Source: Gemmatirosa kalamazoonensis
GTDB taxonomy: Bacteria > Gemmatimonadota > Gemmatimonadetes > Gemmatimonadales > Gemmatimonadaceae
Assembly (NCBI RefSeq): GCF_000522985.1
Contig: NZ_CP007130.1
Location: 930,001-994,000 of the forward strand
DNA: 64,000 nucleotides
Direction of reading: 5' to 3'
Shown here in pieces: positions 6,602-20,653 of this stretch (position 1 is its first letter; every line of letters starts with the position of its first letter). Both the position numbers and the translations under genes were made by a program. The notes under the pieces were generated by a model. It worked only from the letters and a program-made list of their open reading frames with translations. It was not told the origin of the DNA and did not search any database.

Positions 6602-7099
6602 TCAGCGCGCGCGTCGGGTCGTAATCACGATGACGCCGTTGGCGCCCCGCACGCCGTAGTACGAGGCCGCGGCGTCCTTCACGATCTCGATGCGCTGGAC
6701 GTCGCGCGGCTCGATCCCGCGCAGGTCGGCCAGGGCGCGGGTCGCGCCGTCGATGATGACGAGCGGCTCGTTGCTCGACCCGAACGAGCTGGTGCCGCGG
6801 ATCTGGATTGAATAACCGCTCCCCTGCTGGGTCACCGTGACGCCGGTGAACCGCGCCTGGATCATCTGCTCGACGCGGGTGAACCGCTTTCGCTCCTCGT
6901 CCGTGAAGTCGACCGCTTGCGTCGCCGAGCTGCGGCTCCGCTCCGCCCGCGCGCTCCGCGCCGAGTCCGCGCTCGCCACGCGTGCGCGCTCCGCCTCGAG
7001 GTCGGCCGAGTTGCGGCGCGCGCACGCGGCGGACACCGCGCACGTCGTGAGCGCGACGAGGGCGACGCGTACGCCGCGATCCACCGCTGGATGTGTCAT
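6602..7099 (-). CDS. Lipoprotein consisting of a stand-alone TonB-receptor plug domain (upstream paralogue)
   Basis: A 165-residue protein. I start at ATG 7099 because it is followed by a lipoprotein signal peptide (VALTTCAVSAAC); the longer frame would put it out of place. After about 45 charged residues comes a plug domain: RVEQMIQARFTGVTV, IQIRGTSSFGSSNEPLVIIDG, then IEIVKDAAASYYGVRGANGVIVITT. These are the hallmarks of SusC-type receptor plugs, but no beta-barrel follows. It is divergent from the SusC gene, and a paralogue of the same length closes the other side of the SusCD pair. A periplasm-facing lipid-anchored plug could compete with or assist receptor gating; that is inference. Confidence 0.8.
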   Translation of the reverse strand: MTHPAVDRGVRVALVALTTCAVSAACARRNSADLEAERARVASADSARSARAERSRSSATQAVDFTDEERKRFTRVEQMIQARFTGVTVTQQGSGYSIQIRGTSSFGSSNEPLVIIDGATRALADLRGIEPRDVQRIEIVKDAAASYYGVRGANGVIVITTRRAR

Positions 7100-7180
7100 G
7101 CTCGCGCCCCCGTGAGGTGGGGTTCCGCCATCGCCGCACCGGCCGCCCATAGTTAGGGCGCGGCCGCTCGGGCCGCTAGA

Positions 7181-7201
7181 GTGCAGTTGCACGTTTGTGC
7201 A
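7181..7201. promoter_or_regulatory. Candidate operator with three alternating half-sites between the plug and SusC genes
   Basis: GTGCA at 7181, TGCAC at 7188 and GTGCA at 7197 alternate in orientation and form two overlapping dyads with 2- and 4-base spacers. They lie in the divergent promoter region between the plug-domain lipoprotein and the SusC receptor. The half-site matches the dyad at 6467-6481 upstream of glnK, which suggests a common regulator. No -35/-10 pair was convincing here. Confidence 0.4.
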
Positions 7202-7290
7202 GGAATGGACGTTTGACGACCGGCGCTACGCGTGCCAGCATATCGCCTGTTCGTGGAACGAAGTCGCGACCTATCACGGAGGAGGTCCGG

Positions 7291-10200
7291 ATGTCCCCGA
7301 CCGACCGCTCGACACGGTGGCGCACGACGATGTGCGCGCTCGTGCTCCTCGTCACGCCGCTCGCCGCCCAGGCGCAGAATGCGCAGAGTACCGGCACGAT
7401 CAGCGGCACCGTGACCGACTCTGCGGGGACGCCCGTCGCGGGCGCCCGCGTCACCGTCGAGGGGACCGCGCTCGCGATCGGCTCCGGACAGACGGGCCGC
7501 TTCACGCTCGCCGGCGTTCCCACGGGCACCCGCGTCGTCAGCGCGCGCGTGCTCGGCTACCGTCCGCAGAACCAGACCGTCACCGTCACCGCCGGCGCCA
7601 CGGCGACGGTGAACTTCCGCCTCGGCCGCGCGCCGGTGGAGCTCGCGACCATCGTCTCCACCGGCTACGCGACGCAGACGAAGGCGACGATGACCGGCGC
7701 CGCCGAAGTCGTCGGCGGCGAGGAGATCCAGAAGCGCCCGGTCGCGAACATCTCCAAGGGGCTGCAGGGCTTCATGCCCGGCGTCGTCGTGCGCGACTTC
7801 GGCGGGCGGCCCGGCAGCGACGGCGCGCAGATCCGGATCCGCGGCGCCGGCACGTTAGGCGACAACGGCGCGCTCATCCTCGTCGACGGCGTGGTGGGCG
7901 AGATCAACAACCTCGACCCGCTCGACATCGAGAGCGTGTCGGTGCTGAAGGACGCCGCGTCGGCCGCCATCTACGGCGCGCGCGCCGGCAACGGCGTCGT
8001 CATCATCAAGACGCGCCGCGGCCGCAACACGGGCAGCCTCAAGGTCACCTACGACGGCTACGCGGCGACGCAGGCGGCGCAGGACATGCCGCAGCGCGTC
8101 GACATCCGCACCGAGCTGAACGCGGTGAACCAGGTGTACGTCAACTCCGGCCAGGCGCCGAAGTACACCGCGGGCTACATCGACAGCACCGCGAACGGCC
8201 TCGACCCGATCAAGTACCCGAACACGAACTGGCTCAACCTGATCTACAAGAGCGCGCCGATGCAGGACCACACGGTGCGCGTCACGGGCGGCAACGACCT
8301 CGCGCAGCTCTCCCTCTCGGCGAACCATTTCGACCAGGAGGGGATCCTCACGACGGAGAACTTCTACCGCCGCACGACGCTGCGCGGCAACTCCGACTTC
8401 AACGTCACGAAGAAGCTCACCGCCGCCGCGGACCTCATGCTCATGGACGAGCACGTGGTGCGCCCGCGCGGCGAGGGCGACGCGCAGTTCCGCGCGCTGC
8501 ACGACACGCCGCCGACGTCGCTCGCGTTCTACCCCGACGGCTCGTACAGCTGGTCGAAGAGCGCGTTCAATCCGGTCGCGCTGCTCCGCGAGCAGGGGAA
8601 CGTGAACTCGCGCTGGCGCACCGCGTCGCTCAACACCCGCGCCGTCTACGACTGGAAGAACGGCCTCAAGGTGAGCGGCTACTTCACGGGCGACAACAAG
8701 GACAACCGCGACCTCGACTTCCGGCCCGCGTACCGCTTCGTCGACGAGGCCACGCCCACCGTGGCGCGCATGGAGAACGTGCGCAACGTCTCGCGCGACA
8801 CGCGCAACAACGACTACAACATCGAGGTCCAGGCGACGGGCGAGTACGAGCGGATGTTCGGCTCGCACCAGACGCACCTGCTCGTCGGCTACGACCAGCG
8901 CCAGAGCGATCACGACGACGTGTTCGCCGAGCGCCAGGGCGCGTACAACAACGACCTGCAGCTGCCCGGGCAGGGCGACGCGTCGTTCCAGAACACCGGC
9001 AGCAACGCGCGGACGTCGCGCCTCGTCGGCATCTTCGGCCGCTTCAACTACAACTGGAACAACCGGTACCTGTTCGAGGCGAACCTCCGCCGCGACGGCT
9101 CGTCGCGCTTCGGCCCGAACAAGAAGTACGGCACGTTCCCGTCGTTCTCCGCCGCGTGGCGCCTCTCCGAGGAGCCGATGCTGCGCGGCCGCCTCGGCTT
9201 CATCGACGACCTCAAGCTGCGCGGCTCGTGGGGCCGGCTCGGCAACGACCGCATCGGCGACTACCTGTTCCAGCAGACCATCAACCTCAACTCGGGCAAC
9301 TACACGTTCAACAACGCGCTCGCCTCCGGCGCGACGCCGGGACGCATCGCGAACCCCGACATCGGGTGGGAGACGACCGAGCAGACGAACGGCGGCGTCG
9401 ACATGGAGCTGCTGCGCAACCGCCTCTCCATCACGGGCGACGTCTACCGCAAGATCACGACGGGCATCCTGCTGCAGATCCCGATCTCGTCGCTCGTCGG
9501 CGCGACGGCCCCGACGCAGAACGCCGGCGCGGTGAGCAACGTCGGCTGGGAGACGGGGATCAACTGGCGCGACCACATCAGCGCGCTGAACTACCAGATC
9601 GGCGTCAACCTGTCCGACAACAAGAACCGCATCACCGAGCTGCCGGGCGGTGACCAGATCGGGAGCGGCACGATCCGCCGGGTCGGCGAGCCGATCGACG
9701 CGATCTTCGGCATCCGCGCCGTGGGCATCTTCCGCGACTCGGCGGAGCTGAAGTCGTGGGCGACGCAGGTGCCGGGGAAGACGGGGCCCGGGGACCTCAA
9801 GTACCAGGACCAGAACGGCGACGGCAAGATCGACGGCAACGACCGCATCGTCATCGGCGATCCGTTCCCGCACTACATCTGGGGCGCGAACCTCTCGGCG
9901 CAGTTCAAGCGCCTCGACGTGAGCCTGCTGTTCCAGGGCGTCGGCAAGCAGGACGCGTACATGGACGGCGCGCTCATCGAGGGGCCGACGTGGGAGAACT
10001 TCTTCCCCGAGTATCTGCGCGACAGCTGGACCCCGCAGAACCTCGACGCGAAGTTCCCGCGCTTCGTGTTCCGCTCGGACCACAACCACAACGCGCCGGG
10101 CCGCAACTCGTGGTGGGTGCGCGACGCGCGCTACGCGGCGCTGAAGAACGTGAACGTGGGCTACACGCTGCCTAACGGTCTGGTGCACCGCGCCGGCCTC

Positions 10201-10353
10201 GGGAGCGCGCGCTTCTACGTCGCCGGCACGAACGTCTACACGTGGTCGAAGATGAAGGGGCTCCTCCCGGCGGAGCTCAACCCGAGCTCCTCGCGCGGCA
10301 CGTACTACTACCAGACGCGCAACTGGAGCATCGGCACGAGCCTCAGCATGTGA
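7291..10353 (+). CDS. SusC/RagA family TonB-linked outer-membrane receptor
   Basis: A 1020-residue receptor. ATG 7291 follows a GGAGG ribosome site and opens with a Sec signal peptide ending in AQAQ; the longer frame from 7195 lacks this. A carboxypeptidase-regulatory-like domain (GTISGTVTDSAGTPVAGARV to about residue 110) precedes the plug, with IRIRGAGTLGDNGALILVDG and VLKDAASAAIYGARAGNGVVIIKT. The rest is a large barrel ending in TSLSM. Partnered with the SusD gene 56 bases downstream, it should form a TonB-energised complex that imports an oligomeric nutrient such as glycan or peptide. The substrate is not evident from the neighbours. Confidence 0.93.
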   Translation: MSPTDRSTRWRTTMCALVLLVTPLAAQAQNAQSTGTISGTVTDSAGTPVAGARVTVEGTALAIGSGQTGRFTLAGVPTGTRVVSARVLGYRPQNQTVTVTAGATATVNFRLGRAPVELATIVSTGYATQTKATMTGAAEVVGGEEIQKRPVANISKGLQGFMPGVVVRDFGGRPGSDGAQIRIRGAGTLGDNGALILVDGVVGEINNLDPLDIESVSVLKDAASAAIYGARAGNGVVIIKTRRGRNTGSLKVTYDGYAATQAAQDMPQRVDIRTELNAVNQVYVNSGQAPKYTAGYIDSTANGLDPIKYPNTNWLNLIYKSAPMQDHTVRVTGGNDLAQLSLSANHFDQEGILTTENFYRRTTLRGNSDFNVTKKLTAAADLMLMDEHVVRPRGEGDAQFRALHDTPPTSLAFYPDGSYSWSKSAFNPVALLREQGNVNSRWRTASLNTRAVYDWKNGLKVSGYFTGDNKDNRDLDFRPAYRFVDEATPTVARMENVRNVSRDTRNNDYNIEVQATGEYERMFGSHQTHLLVGYDQRQSDHDDVFAERQGAYNNDLQLPGQGDASFQNTGSNARTSRLVGIFGRFNYNWNNRYLFEANLRRDGSSRFGPNKKYGTFPSFSAAWRLSEEPMLRGRLGFIDDLKLRGSWGRLGNDRIGDYLFQQTINLNSGNYTFNNALASGATPGRIANPDIGWETTEQTNGGVDMELLRNRLSITGDVYRKITTGILLQIPISSLVGATAPTQNAGAVSNVGWETGINWRDHISALNYQIGVNLSDNKNRITELPGGDQIGSGTIRRVGEPIDAIFGIRAVGIFRDSAELKSWATQVPGKTGPGDLKYQDQNGDGKIDGNDRIVIGDPFPHYIWGANLSAQFKRLDVSLLFQGVGKQDAYMDGALIEGPTWENFFPEYLRDSWTPQNLDAKFPRFVFRSDHNHNAPGRNSWWVRDARYAALKNVNVGYTLPNGLVHRAGLGSARFYVAGTNVYTWSKMKGLLPAELNPSSSRGTYYYQTRNWSIGTSLSM

Positions 10354-10409
10354 CGGCGCGCGACCATACGCGCCACCGCACACGGGCCCACCTTCATCTC
10401 GAGATTCCG

Positions 10410-12008
10410 ATGACTTCCAGACTCCGCCTCCTGCTGGCCTGCGCGGCCGCTCTGCCGATCGCGCTCGCCGGCTGCAAGCCCGACAAGCTGCTCGACGTCG
10501 TGTCGCCGACCACCGTGTCGGACGACATCTTCTGGTCGCAGGAGAACGACGCGGTCATCTTCCTGAACGGCACGTACAGCGCGCTCCCGTCGTGGATCAC
10601 CGTCATCGAGCTCGACGGCCTCACCGACGACGGCACGACGAACCGCCAGTTCGACGACCGCTACGTGTACTCCGACGGATCGTTCGATCCGCAGAAGCCC
10701 TATTCGCGCAACCACTGGAACAACTTCTACAACGGCGTCGCCCGCGCGAACGCGCTGATCGCGAACATCGACCGCATCCCGGCGGGTCGCATCGACCCGG
10801 CGCGCAAGGCGCGGTACGTGGCCGAGGCGAAGTTCCTGCGCGGCGTGTTCTACCTGCAGCTCGTGAGCATGTTCGGCGATGTGCCGATGCCGCTCACGCC
10901 GCTCACCGACGCCGAGGCGCGGAAGATGACCAACACGCCGGCGGCGAAGATCTACGACCAGGTCCTCGCCGACCTCGACGCCGCCGCGGCCGTGCTGCCG
11001 ACGACGTACACCGGCGCCGACGTCGGTCGCGCGACGAAGGGCGCGGCACTCGCGTTCAAGGCGCGCGCCGCGCTGTACGCCGGCCGCTACCAGATCGCCG
11101 CCGACGCCGCGAAGGCGGTCATGGATCTCGGCATCTACCGGCTGAACGCCGACTACGGGCAGCTCTTCCTGTACGCCGGCGAGAACAGCCCCGAGATCAT
11201 CTTCGCGCACAAGTACTCGAAGACGGCGCAGGCGGCGGGGCAGAACAACAACATCTTCGGCGAGTTCGGCCCGCCGTCGAACTCCGCCAGCGCCCACATG
11301 GTGCCGATCCGCAACCTGGTCGACTCGTACCAGATGACGGACGGCAAGTCGATCAAGGACTCGCCGCTGTACAACCCGGCGCCGGACAAGATGTACCTCA
11401 ACCGCGACCCGCGTCTCGCCGCGACGATCCTGTTCCCCGGCGCGTCGTGGGACGGCCGCACGTTCGACTCGCGGCCGAAGCCGCTCTCCACGCAGCCCGA
11501 GGCGATCGACCTGCAGAACGAGAACACGTCGGTGACCGGCTACTACATCCGCAAGTGGATCGACCTCACCGACAAGACCGACCGCGGCAACGGGGGCATC
11601 GACGTGAGCCTGATGCGCTATGCCGACGTGCTGCTGATGTACGCCGAAGCGAAGCTCGAGGCGGGGCAGCCCGACGCGTCGGCGCTCGCCGCGCTGAACC
11701 AGGTGCGCGCGCGCGTGAGCATGCCCCCGGTGGCCGCGCTCACCCGTGACGCGGTGCGCTACGAGCGCCGTGCCGAGCTCGCGTTCGAGGGGCTGCGCCT
11801 GTTCGACATCCGCCGCTGGAAGATCGCCGAGCAGGTGATGCCGACGCCCGTCGTGACGGGGATCGACTACATCGACGCGAGCGGCCAGCTCCGCACCGCC
11901 ACCGTCCCCGCCTCCGCCCGCGCGTTCCCGCAGCGCGACTACCTGTGGCCGATCCCGCAGGCGGAGCTCGATCTCAATCAGAACCTGAAGCAGAACCCCG
12001 GCTTCTGA
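10410..12008 (+). CDS. RagB/SusD family nutrient-binding outer-membrane lipoprotein
   Basis: A 532-residue protein starting at ATG 10410, with a lipoprotein signal (ALPIALAGC) and the SusD TPR-like scaffold: AEAKFLRGVFYLQLVSMFGDVPMP and a C-terminal RYERRAELAFEGLRLFDIRRWK block, which are family hallmarks. It ends with YLWPIPQAELDLNQNLKQNPGF, the standard SusD closing motif. It forms the surface lid that captures ligand for the SusC channel encoded just upstream. The gene pair appears to be an operon. The hairpin at 12017-12090 lies directly behind its stop. Confidence 0.93.
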   Translation: MTSRLRLLLACAAALPIALAGCKPDKLLDVVSPTTVSDDIFWSQENDAVIFLNGTYSALPSWITVIELDGLTDDGTTNRQFDDRYVYSDGSFDPQKPYSRNHWNNFYNGVARANALIANIDRIPAGRIDPARKARYVAEAKFLRGVFYLQLVSMFGDVPMPLTPLTDAEARKMTNTPAAKIYDQVLADLDAAAAVLPTTYTGADVGRATKGAALAFKARAALYAGRYQIAADAAKAVMDLGIYRLNADYGQLFLYAGENSPEIIFAHKYSKTAQAAGQNNNIFGEFGPPSNSASAHMVPIRNLVDSYQMTDGKSIKDSPLYNPAPDKMYLNRDPRLAATILFPGASWDGRTFDSRPKPLSTQPEAIDLQNENTSVTGYYIRKWIDLTDKTDRGNGGIDVSLMRYADVLLMYAEAKLEAGQPDASALAALNQVRARVSMPPVAALTRDAVRYERRAELAFEGLRLFDIRRWKIAEQVMPTPVVTGIDYIDASGQLRTATVPASARAFPQRDYLWPIPQAELDLNQNLKQNPGF

Positions 12009-12016
12009 CGAAGCGC

Positions 12017-12090
12017 GAGGGCAGGAGGGCAGGAGGGCAGGAGAGGTTCGGACTCTCCTGCCCTCCTGCCCTCCTGCCCTCCTGCCCTCC
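12017..12090. terminator. Bidirectional iterated-repeat terminator between SusD and plug gene
   Basis: Three to four tandem GAGGGCAG units (12017-12045) are mirrored by CTGCCCTC units (12053-12090), giving a stem of nearly 30 bp with a short loop (GTTCGGA). It fills the whole gap between two convergent genes, so it can serve both. The tandem structure suggests growth by replication slippage. Confidence 0.7.
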
Positions 12091-12093
12091 GCG

Positions 12094-12591
12094 TCAGCGG
12101 ATCCGGTGCGTCGTGACGACGATCACGCCGTTGCCGCCGCGGACGCCGTAGAGGCTCGCCGCGGCGTCCTTCAGGACCTCGATGCGGACGACGTCCTTCG
12201 GGTTGACGCTCGAGAGATCGCTCACGCTGTTCATCGTCGCGCCGTCCACGATGAGCAGCGGCTCGGTGCCCGAGTTGAACGACTCCGCGCCGCGGATGTG
12301 GATGTGGTAGCCGGCGCCGTTCGCCGACACCTCGACGCCGGAGAACTTCGCCTGGATCATCTGCTCCACGCGCGTGAAGCGGTCGCGGTCCGCGTCGGTG
12401 ATGTCCACCGCCTGCAGCCCCGAGCTCACGCGCCGCTTCGCGGCCTCGCCGCGGAGGGAGTCGAGCTGACCGGCGGTCGCCACCTGCGGGTCCGTGCGCG
12501 AGGCCGCGCCGTGGGCACAGGCCACGCCGGTCGAGAGGATGCCCGCGCAGGCCGCGAGCCGGAGGGACCGGTGCAATTCAGAGTGTCGCAT
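12094..12591 (-). CDS. Lipoprotein consisting of a stand-alone TonB-receptor plug domain (downstream paralogue)
   Basis: A 165-residue paralogue of the 6602-7099 product, with the same layout. A signal peptide with a cysteine (LSTGVACAHG) precedes a short charged linker, then RVEQMIQAKFSGVEV, IHIRGAESFNSGTEPLLIVDG and IEVLKDAAASLYGVRGGNGVIVVTT. No barrel follows. It converges on the SusD gene across an iterated-repeat terminator, so the SusCD pair is bracketed by two plug lipoproteins, both on the minus strand. The near-identical last 25 residues of the two suggest gene duplication, and the KDAAA-x-YGVRG-NGVIV box indicates both descend from a SusC-type plug. Confidence 0.8.
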   Translation of the reverse strand: MRHSELHRSLRLAACAGILSTGVACAHGAASRTDPQVATAGQLDSLRGEAAKRRVSSGLQAVDITDADRDRFTRVEQMIQAKFSGVEVSANGAGYHIHIRGAESFNSGTEPLLIVDGATMNSVSDLSSVNPKDVVRIEVLKDAAASLYGVRGGNGVIVVTTHRIR

Positions 12592-14079: not shown

Positions 14080-14377
14080 TGAGGGCCGTAGAGCACATCG
14101 ATGGGGCGAGGTGCCAGGCGAGTACTCTGGGGATCCACGTGCGATTGAAAAGATCTCGCGATCCTCTTCATCGCCGTTGGATCCCCAGGGTACTCGTCTA
14201 TCCCTCGAACCTGTCGAAGAGACCGTCAACTGCCATTGACCACGGAGGGCACAGAGCACACAGAGGAGAACCCTTCAAGAGAAGAAGTTGGTTTCCTCCG
14301 TGCCCTCTGTGCCCTCTGTGTTTCAATTCAAAGAGAGCAGTCCTCTGCGGCCCTCTGCGTCCTCTGTGGTTCATTGA
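14080..14377. repeat. Intergenic nested inverted repeat, copy B, with an extra palindrome
   Basis: This 315-base gene-free gap between two convergent genes holds three repeat layers. The outer arms are GAGGGCCGTAGAG near 14083 and the CTCTGCGGCC series at 14344-14371. The inner arms are CCACGGAGGGCACAGAG at about 14238-14254 and CTCCGTGCCCTCTGTG near 14297. Between the outer left and inner left arms sits a separate stem, AGTACTCTGGGGATCCA (14121-14137) against TTGGATCCCCAGGGTACT (14178-14193). Its CTGGGGAT core is shared with copy C. No ORF is convincing here. Confidence 0.75.
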
Positions 14378-14391
14378 CGAGCAATGTCCGC

Positions 14392-17300
14392 TCAGGCGTC
14401 GCGCGGCGCGCGCAGCACGCTCGTCACGGCCTGCAGCAGCGCCTCGCCGGTGAACGGCTTCTCGACGAAGCCGTCCGCCGGTTCCACCGCGCCGCGGTCG
14501 ACGTAGCCGGAGAGGTACACCACCGGCAGCGCGGGGCGGTCGGCGCGGATCTGCGCGACGAGCTCGCGGCCACCCATCTCCGGCATGCGCAGGTCCGTCA
14601 CGCAGCACACGATGTCCGCGCCGTGCTCGCGCCAGACGAGCAGCGCGTCCGCCCCGTGGCGCGCCTCGAGCACCGCGAAGCCGTGTCGCTCCAGCACGCG
14701 CCGCGTCGTCAGCCGTACCGATGCCTCGTCCTCCACGACGAGCACCGTGCCGCGGCCGCGCGGCAGCGACGTGCCGCCGCCGCGCTCCGCCGCGGCCACG
14801 CGTCCACCCTGATACGGCAGCAGGATCGTGAACGTCGCGCCGGCGCCCGGCTCGCTGTCGACGTGCACCGCGCCACCGGCCTGCGTGACGATGCCGTACA
14901 CCGTGGCGAGGCCGAGCCCCGTGCCGGCGCCGACCGCCTTCGTCGTGAAGAACGGCTCGAAGATGTGCGCGCGCGTCGTCGCGTCCATGCCGTGGCCGGT
15001 GTCCGAGACCGTCAGGCGCACGTAGCGTCCCGGTCCCGGCGTCCAGCCCTGCGCCTCGCGCGGCGAGAGGCGCACCACGTCGGTCACGAGGGTGAGCGTG
15101 CCGCCGGTGCCGGCGCGCCCGTGCGCCGTGGTCAGCATCGCGTCGCGCGCGTTCACGGCGAGGTTGAGGAGCACCTGCTCGAGCTGCCCGCGGTCGGCGC
15201 GCACGACGGCCGGCCGCTCGGCGAGCGTCGTCGCGAACGCGATCTCCTCGCCGAGCACGCGGCGCAGCAGCGCCTCCGCGCCGCGCACGACGTCGTTCAC
15301 GTCGATCTCCTCCGACTGCACCACCTGCTTGCGGCTGAACGCGAGCAGCTGGCGCACGAGCGCCCGCGCGCGCTCCGCCGCCTGCGCGACCTGCGCGAGA
15401 TCCTCCTGCGCCTGGTGGTCGGGATCGATGTCGTTGCGCGCGAACTCCAGGTTCCCGTTGATGACGGTGAGCAGGTTGTTGAAGTCGTGCGCGACGCCGC
15501 CGGCGAGCTGCCCGACGGCCTCCATCTTCTGCGCCTGCCGCAGCTGCGCTTCGAGCCGCACGCGCTCGGAGACGTCGATCAGCACCACCACGCCGCCGAC
15601 GATGCGGCCTTCCGCATCGCGCACCGGCTCGGCCGCGCTCAGCACCGTCGCGCTGCCGCCGTCGAGGCGCTCCAGCTCCAGCTCGCGCGGCGGCGTGGAC
15701 TCGCCGCGCAGGGCACGCGTGAGCGCGCGCTCGTCGTCCGTGAGCGGACGATTGCTGCCGCGCAGGCGGGCGCGGTAGCGGCCGTAGCCGTCGACGTGCT
15801 CCGCCGTGACGTCGCCGCCCCACAGCGCACGCGCCTGCCGCGTCGCGCGCACGATGCGTCCGTCGGCGTCGGCGAAGATGACGCCCGCCGGGAGCGCCTC
15901 GAGCACCGCCTCGAGCCGCGCGCGCTCCACGTCGGCCGCGGAGCGCGCCCGCGCTTCGGCCTCCTCCGCCTCGCGACGCGCGGTGATGTCCTCCACGGTG
16001 CCGAGCGAGCTCTCGGGCTCTCCCGCGGCGTTGCGCAGCAACACCATGTGCCCGCGGATCCAGCGCGTGCGGCCGTCGGGGAGCACGATCTGGTACTCGC
16101 TCGAGAACTGCGCGCCCGCCGCGAACGCCGCGATGCCGTCGCGGCGGAGGCGCGATGCCTCCTCCGGCGTCATGCGCGTGAGCCAGCCGTTGCCTAACGC
16201 GGCCTCGCCGCGGAGCTCCCAGATCTCCTCGTAGCGCGGGTTCGCGTAGAGCACGCGCCCGTCCGCGTCGCCGAGGAAGATCCCGACGGGGGCCGCCGCG
16301 GCGAGCTGACGGAAGCGCGCATCGTTCGCGCGCCGCTCGGCCTCGGCGTGCTTCTCCGCCGTGACGTCGGCGACGATCGCGATCATGCCGGTGGGCCGGC
16401 CGTCGGCGTCGCGCTGCCGGCGCAGCGTGGAGTGCACCCACCGTACGGTGCCGTCGGCGCGGCGCAGCCGGTACTCCGACGTCGTCTCGTCCGCCTCGCC
16501 GGCGAGGAACGCGTGCGCGTCGCGCTCGGCCGCCGCGAGGTCGGCGGGGTGCATCGCGGCGCGCCACGTCGCGTCGGTGATCTGCTCCAGGTCGATGCCG
16601 AGGATCTCGGCGAACCGCTCGTTGCGGTAGAGCGCGTTCCCGGTCGCGTCGAGCAGCGCGATGCCGGCCGGCGCCGCCGCGGCGAGCGTGCGGAACCGCG
16701 TCTCGCTCTCGCGCAGCCGCTCGGCGTCGGCGTGGCGGTCGCTGACGTCGTGCGTCACGCTGAGCGCGGCGACGACGTTGCCGGCGTCGTCGCGCAGCGG
16801 TGCGGCCCGCGTCTCGACGCGGCGCGTGTGTCCGCCGAGCGTCACGATCTCGAGCTCCGCGCGCGCCGCCGTTCCGCCGAACACGCTGGCCAGCACGCGA
16901 CGCAACGCGCCGCGATGCCGCGGCACGACGATCTGCTCCACGGGGCAGCCGATCACCGCGTCGCGCGACGGCGCCTCGAGCATCGCGAGCCCCGCGCCGT
17001 TCATGTCGAGCAGCGTGCCGTCGCGCGCGACGACCTTGATGCACTCCGGCACCGTGTCGAGCACCGCGTGCAGGTAGCGCGTGCCCTCGACCCCGGCCGC
17101 CGCGTCGCTCCACGGCTCGCCGTCGAGCAGCAGCAGCGCGCCCTCGGGGCTCGGCACCACCCGACCGGGCACCGGCTCGCTCACGGTCGTCGCGCGCTGC
17201 GTCGCGACGGCGGCGGCGATCGCGTCGTGCAGCACATCCGCCGCCGGCAGCACGTCGGCGAGCGAGCGCCCCACGAGCGCCACGTCGCCGAGTCCGAGCA

Positions 17301-20105: not shown

Positions 20106-20182
20106 ATGTCGTTCGCACCGCGTCACGCGCGTCTCGTCCCTGACGTCTGGCGCCTCGCACGCGGGCCCCGGAGCTTCGGCCC

Positions 20183-20653
20183 ATGCCACCGATCTCCCTG
20201 CGCGTGAACGGCCGGCCGCACTCCGTCGACGCCGACGCGAACACGCCACTGCTCTGGGTCCTGCGCGAGACGCTCGACCTCACCGGCACGAAGTTCGGCT
20301 GCGGGATCGGCGCGTGCGGGGCGTGCATGGTGCACGTCGATGGGGCGCCGGTGACGTCGTGCGTGACGCCGCTCGGCGCGGTCGCCGGGAAGGCGGTGAC
20401 GACGATCGAGGGGCTCGACCCGCGCGGCGCGCACGCGGTGCAGCGCGCATGGACGGAGCACGACGTGCCGCAGTGCGGCTACTGCCAGGCCGGCCAGCTC
20501 ATGTCCGCCGCGGCGCTGCTCGCGCGCCGGCCGTCGCCGACCGACGCCGACATCGACGACGCGATGTCGCGCAACCTCTGCCGCTGCGGCACCTACGACC
20601 GCATCCGCGCCGCGGTCCACCGCGCGGCCGAGCTCCGGGGCGCGGCGCGATGA
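20183..20653 (+). CDS. 2Fe-2S subunit of a xanthine-oxidase-family hydroxylase (isoquinoline 1-oxidoreductase alpha type)
   Basis: A 156-residue two-cluster iron-sulfur protein. The plant-type ferredoxin cluster is held by CGIGACGAC and a later Cys (TSC). The C-terminal four-helix cluster is held by CGYCQAGQ and CRCGTY. It relays electrons from the molybdenum site of the next gene's product. The start and the ATGA overlap with the downstream gene show a two-gene operon. There is no FAD subunit, consistent with the IorAB branch that passes electrons to a cytochrome or quinone rather than NAD. Confidence 0.92.

Follow-up and report, generated by a model that had tools for sequence, protein, structure and literature searches.

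The 64,000-nucleotide stretch of the Gemmatirosa kalamazoonensis genome analyzed here (contig NZ_CP007130.1, positions 930,001 to 994,000; hereafter the window, with positions counted from its first letter) contains genes for two small predicted lipoproteins, each with a lipoprotein-type signal, a short linker, and the plug domain of a SusC-type transporter but no barrel, one on either side of a SusC/SusD (SusCD) pair. The genome comprises 7.48 Mb in four contigs, and the window lies on the 1.04-Mb contig. Stand-alone plug lipoprotein 1 (P0001) is encoded at 6602..7099 and stand-alone plug lipoprotein 2 (P0002) at 12094..12591, both on the minus strand; each has 165 residues, with a lipobox-like cysteine at residue 26 in P0001 and at residue 25 in P0002. 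Between them, on the plus strand, lie SusC (7291..10353), which has a signal, a carboxypeptidase-regulatory N-terminal extension (NTE), its own plug, and a barrel, and the SusD lipoprotein lid (10410..12008). Both members of this pair are full-length, with scores of 813.8 bits against TIGR04056 for SusC and 210 bits against PF07980 (E 6e-62) for SusD. The two plug genes are oriented opposite to susCD: that of P0001 is divergent from susC (about 190 bp), and that of P0002 is convergent with susD (85 bp). The original prediction, made from the sequence alone, had described two barrel-less plug paralogues with lipoprotein signals around a complete SusCD pair, and its coordinates, lengths, and motifs all proved right.

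The assignment of both small proteins to the SusC plug family is consistent across methods. Pfam returned a single match to Plug (PF07715) in each, in the C-terminal two thirds, and no other family (E 5e-14 for P0001, which the family alignment also supports, and 1e-13 for P0002); the scores of 53.1 and 51.9 bits are above the curated cut-off of 23.9. The plug domain spans 6632..6934 in P0001 (Pfam residues 57-157, counted with one extra leading codon), leaving 9 residues between the Pfam boundary and the C-terminus, and 12124..12438 in P0002 (Pfam residues 52-156). The SusC/RagA plug signature TIGR04057 is passed by both (47.7 and 47.9 bits; cut-off, 46.2). Against the full-length transporter model TIGR04056 they reach 100.8 and 96.6 bits, matching positions 87-206 of 981 only, and fall below the required 368 bits because they have no barrel. 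P0001 contains KDAAASYYGVRGANGVIV and P0002 contains KDAAASLYGVRGGNGVIV. The two share 51% sequence identity from end to end (E 8e-56), and P0001 has 30% identity with the plug of the intervening SusC. A codon-usage gene caller selects both as genes.

The same anatomy recurs in relatives. We compared 59 stand-alone plugs from fetched loci with 74 SusC plugs. All 59 stop 0 to 8 residues past the plug match, and a lipobox-like cysteine follows a hydrophobic stretch in 56 of them, with a linker of mostly 21 to 54 residues (these assignments come from a permissive pattern, and a few of them are doubtful). The signal cysteine is present in more than 90% of a 28-member family alignment. The window pair has the hydrophobic signal and the cysteine in an imperfect lipobox (VSAAC and TGVAC), with an atypical residue at -3. 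Stand-alone and SusC plugs have a common core of IRG, PLxxxDG, P-D, LKDA, YGxRGxNGV, and T, and the stand-alone group has few columns of its own (E at alignment column 46, G at 67, and E at 91). The SGxPG hairpin of SusC is missing from the stand-alone plugs, including the window pair. In AlphaFold2, mature P0001 was predicted with a predicted local distance difference test score (pLDDT) of 80, rising to about 90 across much of the plug core, and a predicted template modeling (pTM) score of 0.67. The best Protein Data Bank (PDB) matches of the predicted fold are the plugs of SusC, RagA, and BT1763, with template modeling (TM) scores of about 0.6; by sequence, the best PDB matches are likewise SusC/RagA-type plugs.

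A search with P0001 for plug-only proteins in related genomes, as the original prediction had advised, found matches at E 1e-19 in 60 of 395 Gemmatimonadota genomes (the phylum group around the window genome), spread across the phylum. Because this strict cut-off reaches only members near P0001, the true numbers of the family, whose members we call lipoplugs, are higher. Outside the window genome there were roughly 70 matches, and all but two of them fall in short frames of about 130 to 490 codons, not in the 1000-codon frames of SusC. Among 395 Bacteroidota genomes there were 22 matches at the same cut-off. Three of them, each at a GC-rich locus, were stand-alone; two of these, nearly identical, are in the order lipoplug-SusC-SusD. 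In a search of eight Bacteroidota genomes, the matches listed (about 155 of 382) were all in frames of more than 800 codons. The family is common in Gemmatimonadota and rare in Bacteroidota. A plasmid search returned no match, and a pattern scan of genome contigs was uninformative, retrieving mostly Bacteroidota SusC. The window genome has six members (C4:936605, C4:942097, C3:309902, C4:45461, C2:390122, and C4:868568), of which C3:309902 is about 110 bp behind a SusD gene, C2:390122 is behind a SusC-SusD-GH26 series, and C4:868568 is between two SusCD pairs. A seventh candidate, C2:5268831, was first counted as a member and then left out as too divergent to place, with an end branch of 5.75. 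This locus (L125:2245-2712; G000:C2:5268744-5269211) encodes a 155-residue plug-like lipoprotein directly behind a SusD gene and stands outside the main family. In genome G336, two stand-alone plug genes occur in tandem at one locus (L235:1260-2407).

Could these genes be decaying fragments of susC? Some copies may indeed be decaying, given in-frame stops in the matched stretch of single members in three genomes (G105:C5:22301, G384:C140:2738, and G430:C80:60091). For the family as a whole the evidence points the other way. Close lipoplug pairs in genera g22 and g79 have ratios of nonsynonymous to synonymous substitution rates (dN/dS) of 0.06 to 0.16, compared with 0.03 to 0.13 for the neighboring SusC and SusD in g79; ratios of distant g22 pairs reach 0.46, at values of dS that are saturated or nearly so. 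In these two genera, purifying selection on lipoplugs is comparable in strength to that on neighboring SusC and SusD. Position is conserved as well. In g22, every species read except one has the orthologue at a common site, flanked by envelope genes and by a glyoxalase-family gene that is itself followed by copA; the g79 lipoplugs are directly beside susC. The order SusC, SusD, one or more ASPIC/FG-GAP proteins, and a lipoplug on the opposite strand is conserved in six genomes of two families (G006, G004, G144, G190, the window genome, and G057, which belongs to another family of the order).

Phylogeny places most of the family in a clade of its own. In a first quick tree of 58 stand-alone and 77 SusC rows over 132 alignment columns, a 60-row group with a Shimodaira-Hasegawa-like approximate likelihood ratio test (SH-aLRT) support of 97 held all 58 stand-alone plugs and two rows filed as SusC, one of which (L111_7936, from G118) is a stand-alone plug in a long open frame and the other (L072_2) a fragment. 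Adding five rows gave a pure group that held 58 out of 64 stand-alone plugs, again with SH-aLRT 97. The trees imply three to four label changes, some of them from misfiled or fragmentary rows. Most of the family thus apparently has one origin, in which SusC plugs would have been cut at the plug/barrel boundary; the short alignment, the quick trees, and the collection of stand-alone rows by likeness to P0001 leave room for a few extra origins. The two window proteins group as sisters (SH-aLRT 99-100), away from the plug of their own SusC, which points to a lineage-specific duplication rather than a by-product of that SusC. No relative closer than about 50% identity to the pair was found in the genomes searched. 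The precise C-terminal ends, the conserved signal, the low dN/dS, the synteny of one subgroup, the mostly single clade, and the spread across the phylum leave decay of susC barely conceivable as a general explanation, and we rejected it; lipoplugs are almost certainly an old, conserved, functional family and not gene debris. The original prediction was therefore correct in regarding the window pair as real barrel-less plug proteins, and the random decay without synteny or selection that it had named as its counter-evidence is excluded. Its suggestion of decoys for TonB is not supported, at least for the window pair, and the bracket around SusCD is not a system, as described below.

Gene neighborhoods connect many lipoplugs to SusCD without tying them to every pair. 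SusC or SusD is encoded within three genes of the lipoplug at 27 of 57 loci, which represent 14 of the 22 genera; with the 2 to 30 SusD matches per genome seen in the 12 genomes checked, chance proximity is estimated at 2-5% for about 4000 genes. Other recurring neighbors are glycan genes (GH26, a GDSL esterase, a xylose-isomerase-like TIM barrel, and DUF6807). Among the loci surveyed, only the window showed a SusCD pair with plug genes on both sides; no second or orthologous bracket appeared elsewhere in the survey, and many relatives have no SusCD nearby, so the bracket is not a system. One explanation for the proximity is that lipoplugs are assembly or quality-control factors that close a nascent or empty SusC barrel, or guide its plug, during insertion by the β-barrel assembly machinery (BAM). 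Many loci do adjoin SusC or SusD, often with the lipoplug gene co-directional and directly upstream of susC (g79, L074, L113, and L252) and also downstream of susD (L082, L115, L226, and L238). Most SusCD pairs of the same genomes have no lipoplug, indicating that SusC assembly does not generally require one, and we consider this explanation unlikely.

Stand-alone and SusC plugs also differ in the TonB box. The VxVGYG TonB-box segment is missing in 39 of 59 stand-alone plugs, including P0001 and P0002, and is present in 13 of 15 testable SusC proteins. A similar segment before the plug is kept in the other 20, including all members from g79. Where the alignment column is present, the tyrosine of VxxGYG occurs in 97% of SusC and 39% of stand-alone plugs; the aligned residue is arginine in both P0001 and P0002. 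In BT1763, residues D82-G88 form the TonB box (PMC7782687), and an "aromatic lock" arises from stacking of Y89 with plug residue Y191 and barrel residue F558 (PMC7618045). Alignment with the BT1763 PDB chain, in which residue numbers were derived by subtracting a 25-residue signal, identified Y191 as the tyrosine of YGxRG and Y89 as the tyrosine of TGY. Lipoplugs keep the tyrosine aligned with Y191, and most have lost the one aligned with Y89, beside the TonB box; the window proteins therefore retain only the plug side of the aromatic lock. These findings bear on the proposal that lipoplugs act as decoys or competitors for TonB. The members that keep a VxVGYG-like segment speak for it, whereas the loss of the TonB box with retention of the plug core argues against it for the window pair at least, and the rarity of the segment and of its tyrosine relative to SusC argues against it more broadly. 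We regard this role as very improbable.

We favor the reading that the window pair are periplasm-facing, TonB-blind accessory or spare plugs of SusC-type transporters, and from the sequence evidence we would put its probability at roughly 0.4. More generally, the lipoplugs of these soil bacteria may serve sugar-import channels of the SusC type as reserve corks or as regulatory ones. Their lipid anchor would sit in the inner leaflet of the outer membrane with the plug facing the periplasm, and a linker of 20 to 50 residues would let the plug sit beneath a SusC barrel at its periplasmic mouth, the side where plugs enter. There, the tethered plug could occupy or guard the barrel while the barrel's own plug is out of place in the course of transport or assembly. 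Lacking a TonB box, the plugs of the window pair could not be pulled out by TonB. The whole plug has been proposed to be extracted from the SusCD barrel, with the reset step unclear, and in BT1762-63 the plug leaves the barrel of the closed, empty transporter in vitro (PMC7782687). The parts of this reading differ in strength. A tie between lipoplug function and SusC-type glycan uptake is fairly probable; docking of lipoplugs to SusC barrels, or sealing of them, is a tentative suggestion. It is rather doubtful that lipoplugs are trans-acting, TonB-blind corks that enter SusC barrels from the periplasm once the barrel's own plug has been pulled out and that seal the outer membrane or hold the transporter closed, with a TonB-box-bearing subset being removable.

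Several observations weigh against a role as accessory plugs. The isolated plug of FepA was unfolded (PMC11658791), and a free plug is therefore not necessarily a stable stopper. VxVGYG persists in about a third of the family, and a single TonB-blind role misfits those members. SusC plugs were present in the AlphaFold2 alignment, which biases the fold model and makes the predicted plug fold support rather than an independent test. The selection estimates come from relatives; the window pair has no close orthologue suited to such a test. The lipoplug of g22 is beside copA and a glyoxalase-type gene, with no SusCD, and the window genome has about 35 full-length SusC and 26 SusD matches but only six lipoplugs; on these grounds we rejected the idea of an obligate partner for every SusCD pair. 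We likewise rejected a split receptor in which lipoplugs complement plug-less barrels, since a TIGR04056 search of the window genome found no plug-less SusC barrel except one gene frameshifted in a GC run. The SusC gene at L123:1392-4708 (G000:C2:3078391-3081707) is interrupted by a change of frame in a GCGCGCGC run near the plug/barrel boundary, which could reflect slippage, decay, or an assembly error.

The g22 neighborhoods without SusCD speak for the alternative that the plug fold has been repurposed, with lipoplugs making no barrel contact and serving as small periplasmic or surface lipoproteins for binding or sensing in glycan loci, or in metal loci in the case of g22. Subgroups with different catabolic neighbors (DUF6807 with the TIM-barrel isomerase, GDSL esterase, GH26, or ASPIC/FG-GAP proteins) and the absence of the SGxPG hairpin are in keeping with it. 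Against it, the columns that lipoplugs keep are those of the SusC plug core, including the tyrosine that in BT1763 contacts the barrel and the TonB-box segment, and few columns set the stand-alone group apart. Repurposing seems to us somewhat unlikely, and we retain the accessory-plug reading as the preferred one.

The flanks of the plug genes hold further features. The divergent intergenic region at 7100..7290 is common to plug gene 1 and susC, and a pattern scan of it found no sigma-70-like promoter. Where susD and plug gene 2 converge, the DNA between them holds a 29-nucleotide perfect inverted repeat of the octamer GAGGGCAG (12017..12081), likely a hairpin or terminator shared by the two genes. 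Arrays of this octamer, with the window copy at 12017-12089, are dispersed over contigs C2, C3, and C4, often as facing inverted pairs, and gave 302 overlapping matches at up to one mismatch, compared with 0 in a reversed control. They are directly behind two lipoplug genes, those of P0002 and C4:45461, and are possibly a spreading terminator-like hairpin. Another dispersed repeat appears to be represented in the window at about 700-860, 14200-14400, and 20150-20300, where similar stretches give NHRGHRG-type peptides in the list of open reading frames.

How TonB-dependent transporters open without leaking is an open question, as is plug reset in SusCD (PMC7782687). Natural free plugs that are under selection, often beside SusCD, and found with and without a TonB box offer a ready tool for asking whether plugs work in trans. 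Lipoplugs also add a recurrent component to the SusCD loci of Gemmatimonadota. In the open-access literature we found neither a published description of a barrel-less plug family nor a study dedicated to Gemmatimonadota SusCD loci. Automatic annotation would label such genes "TonB-dependent receptor plug domain-containing protein." A possible further parallel for plugs used outside TonB-dependent receptors is found in Bacteroidota, in plug domains fused to M56/BlaR1-type or alpha-2-macroglobulin proteins in multi-domain architectures.

Within the window genome, two other kinds of plug protein are also barrel-less, the NTE-plug-TonB_C and the multi-NTE-plug proteins, but these have 360 to 530 residues, extra domains, and much weaker plug similarity. 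The first kind (about 370 to 410 residues) combines a signal peptide, a carboxypeptidase-regulatory domain, a degenerate plug, and a TonB C-terminal domain, an odd combination for one periplasmic protein. It is encoded at G000:C2:239462-240562 (L126) and C2:3112529-3113707 (L127), with relatives at L242-L248, L254, and L255; four members are confirmed by Pfam, and nearly full-length relatives occur in about 20 genomes of the same family. The second kind, at G000:C2 loci L128 (1702-3072), L129, L130, and L131, has 450 to 527 residues, in which a weak C-terminal plug comes after one, two, or three carboxypeptidase-regulatory repeats. SusD and the SusE/surface glycan-binding protein (SGBP) lipoproteins are encoded beside susC, as are many of the lipoplugs with their lipoprotein-type signals. 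Their fold is different, and SusD is a surface lid, whereas lipoplugs may be on the periplasmic side. The closest known systems are the SusC/RagA transporters (TIGR04056), such as BT1763 and RagA, which have the same plug with the TIGR04057 signature and provide the best PDB matches. The window pair differ from them in having no barrel, NTE, TonB-box segment, or SGxPG hairpin, and in carrying a lipoprotein-type signal in place of a plain one.

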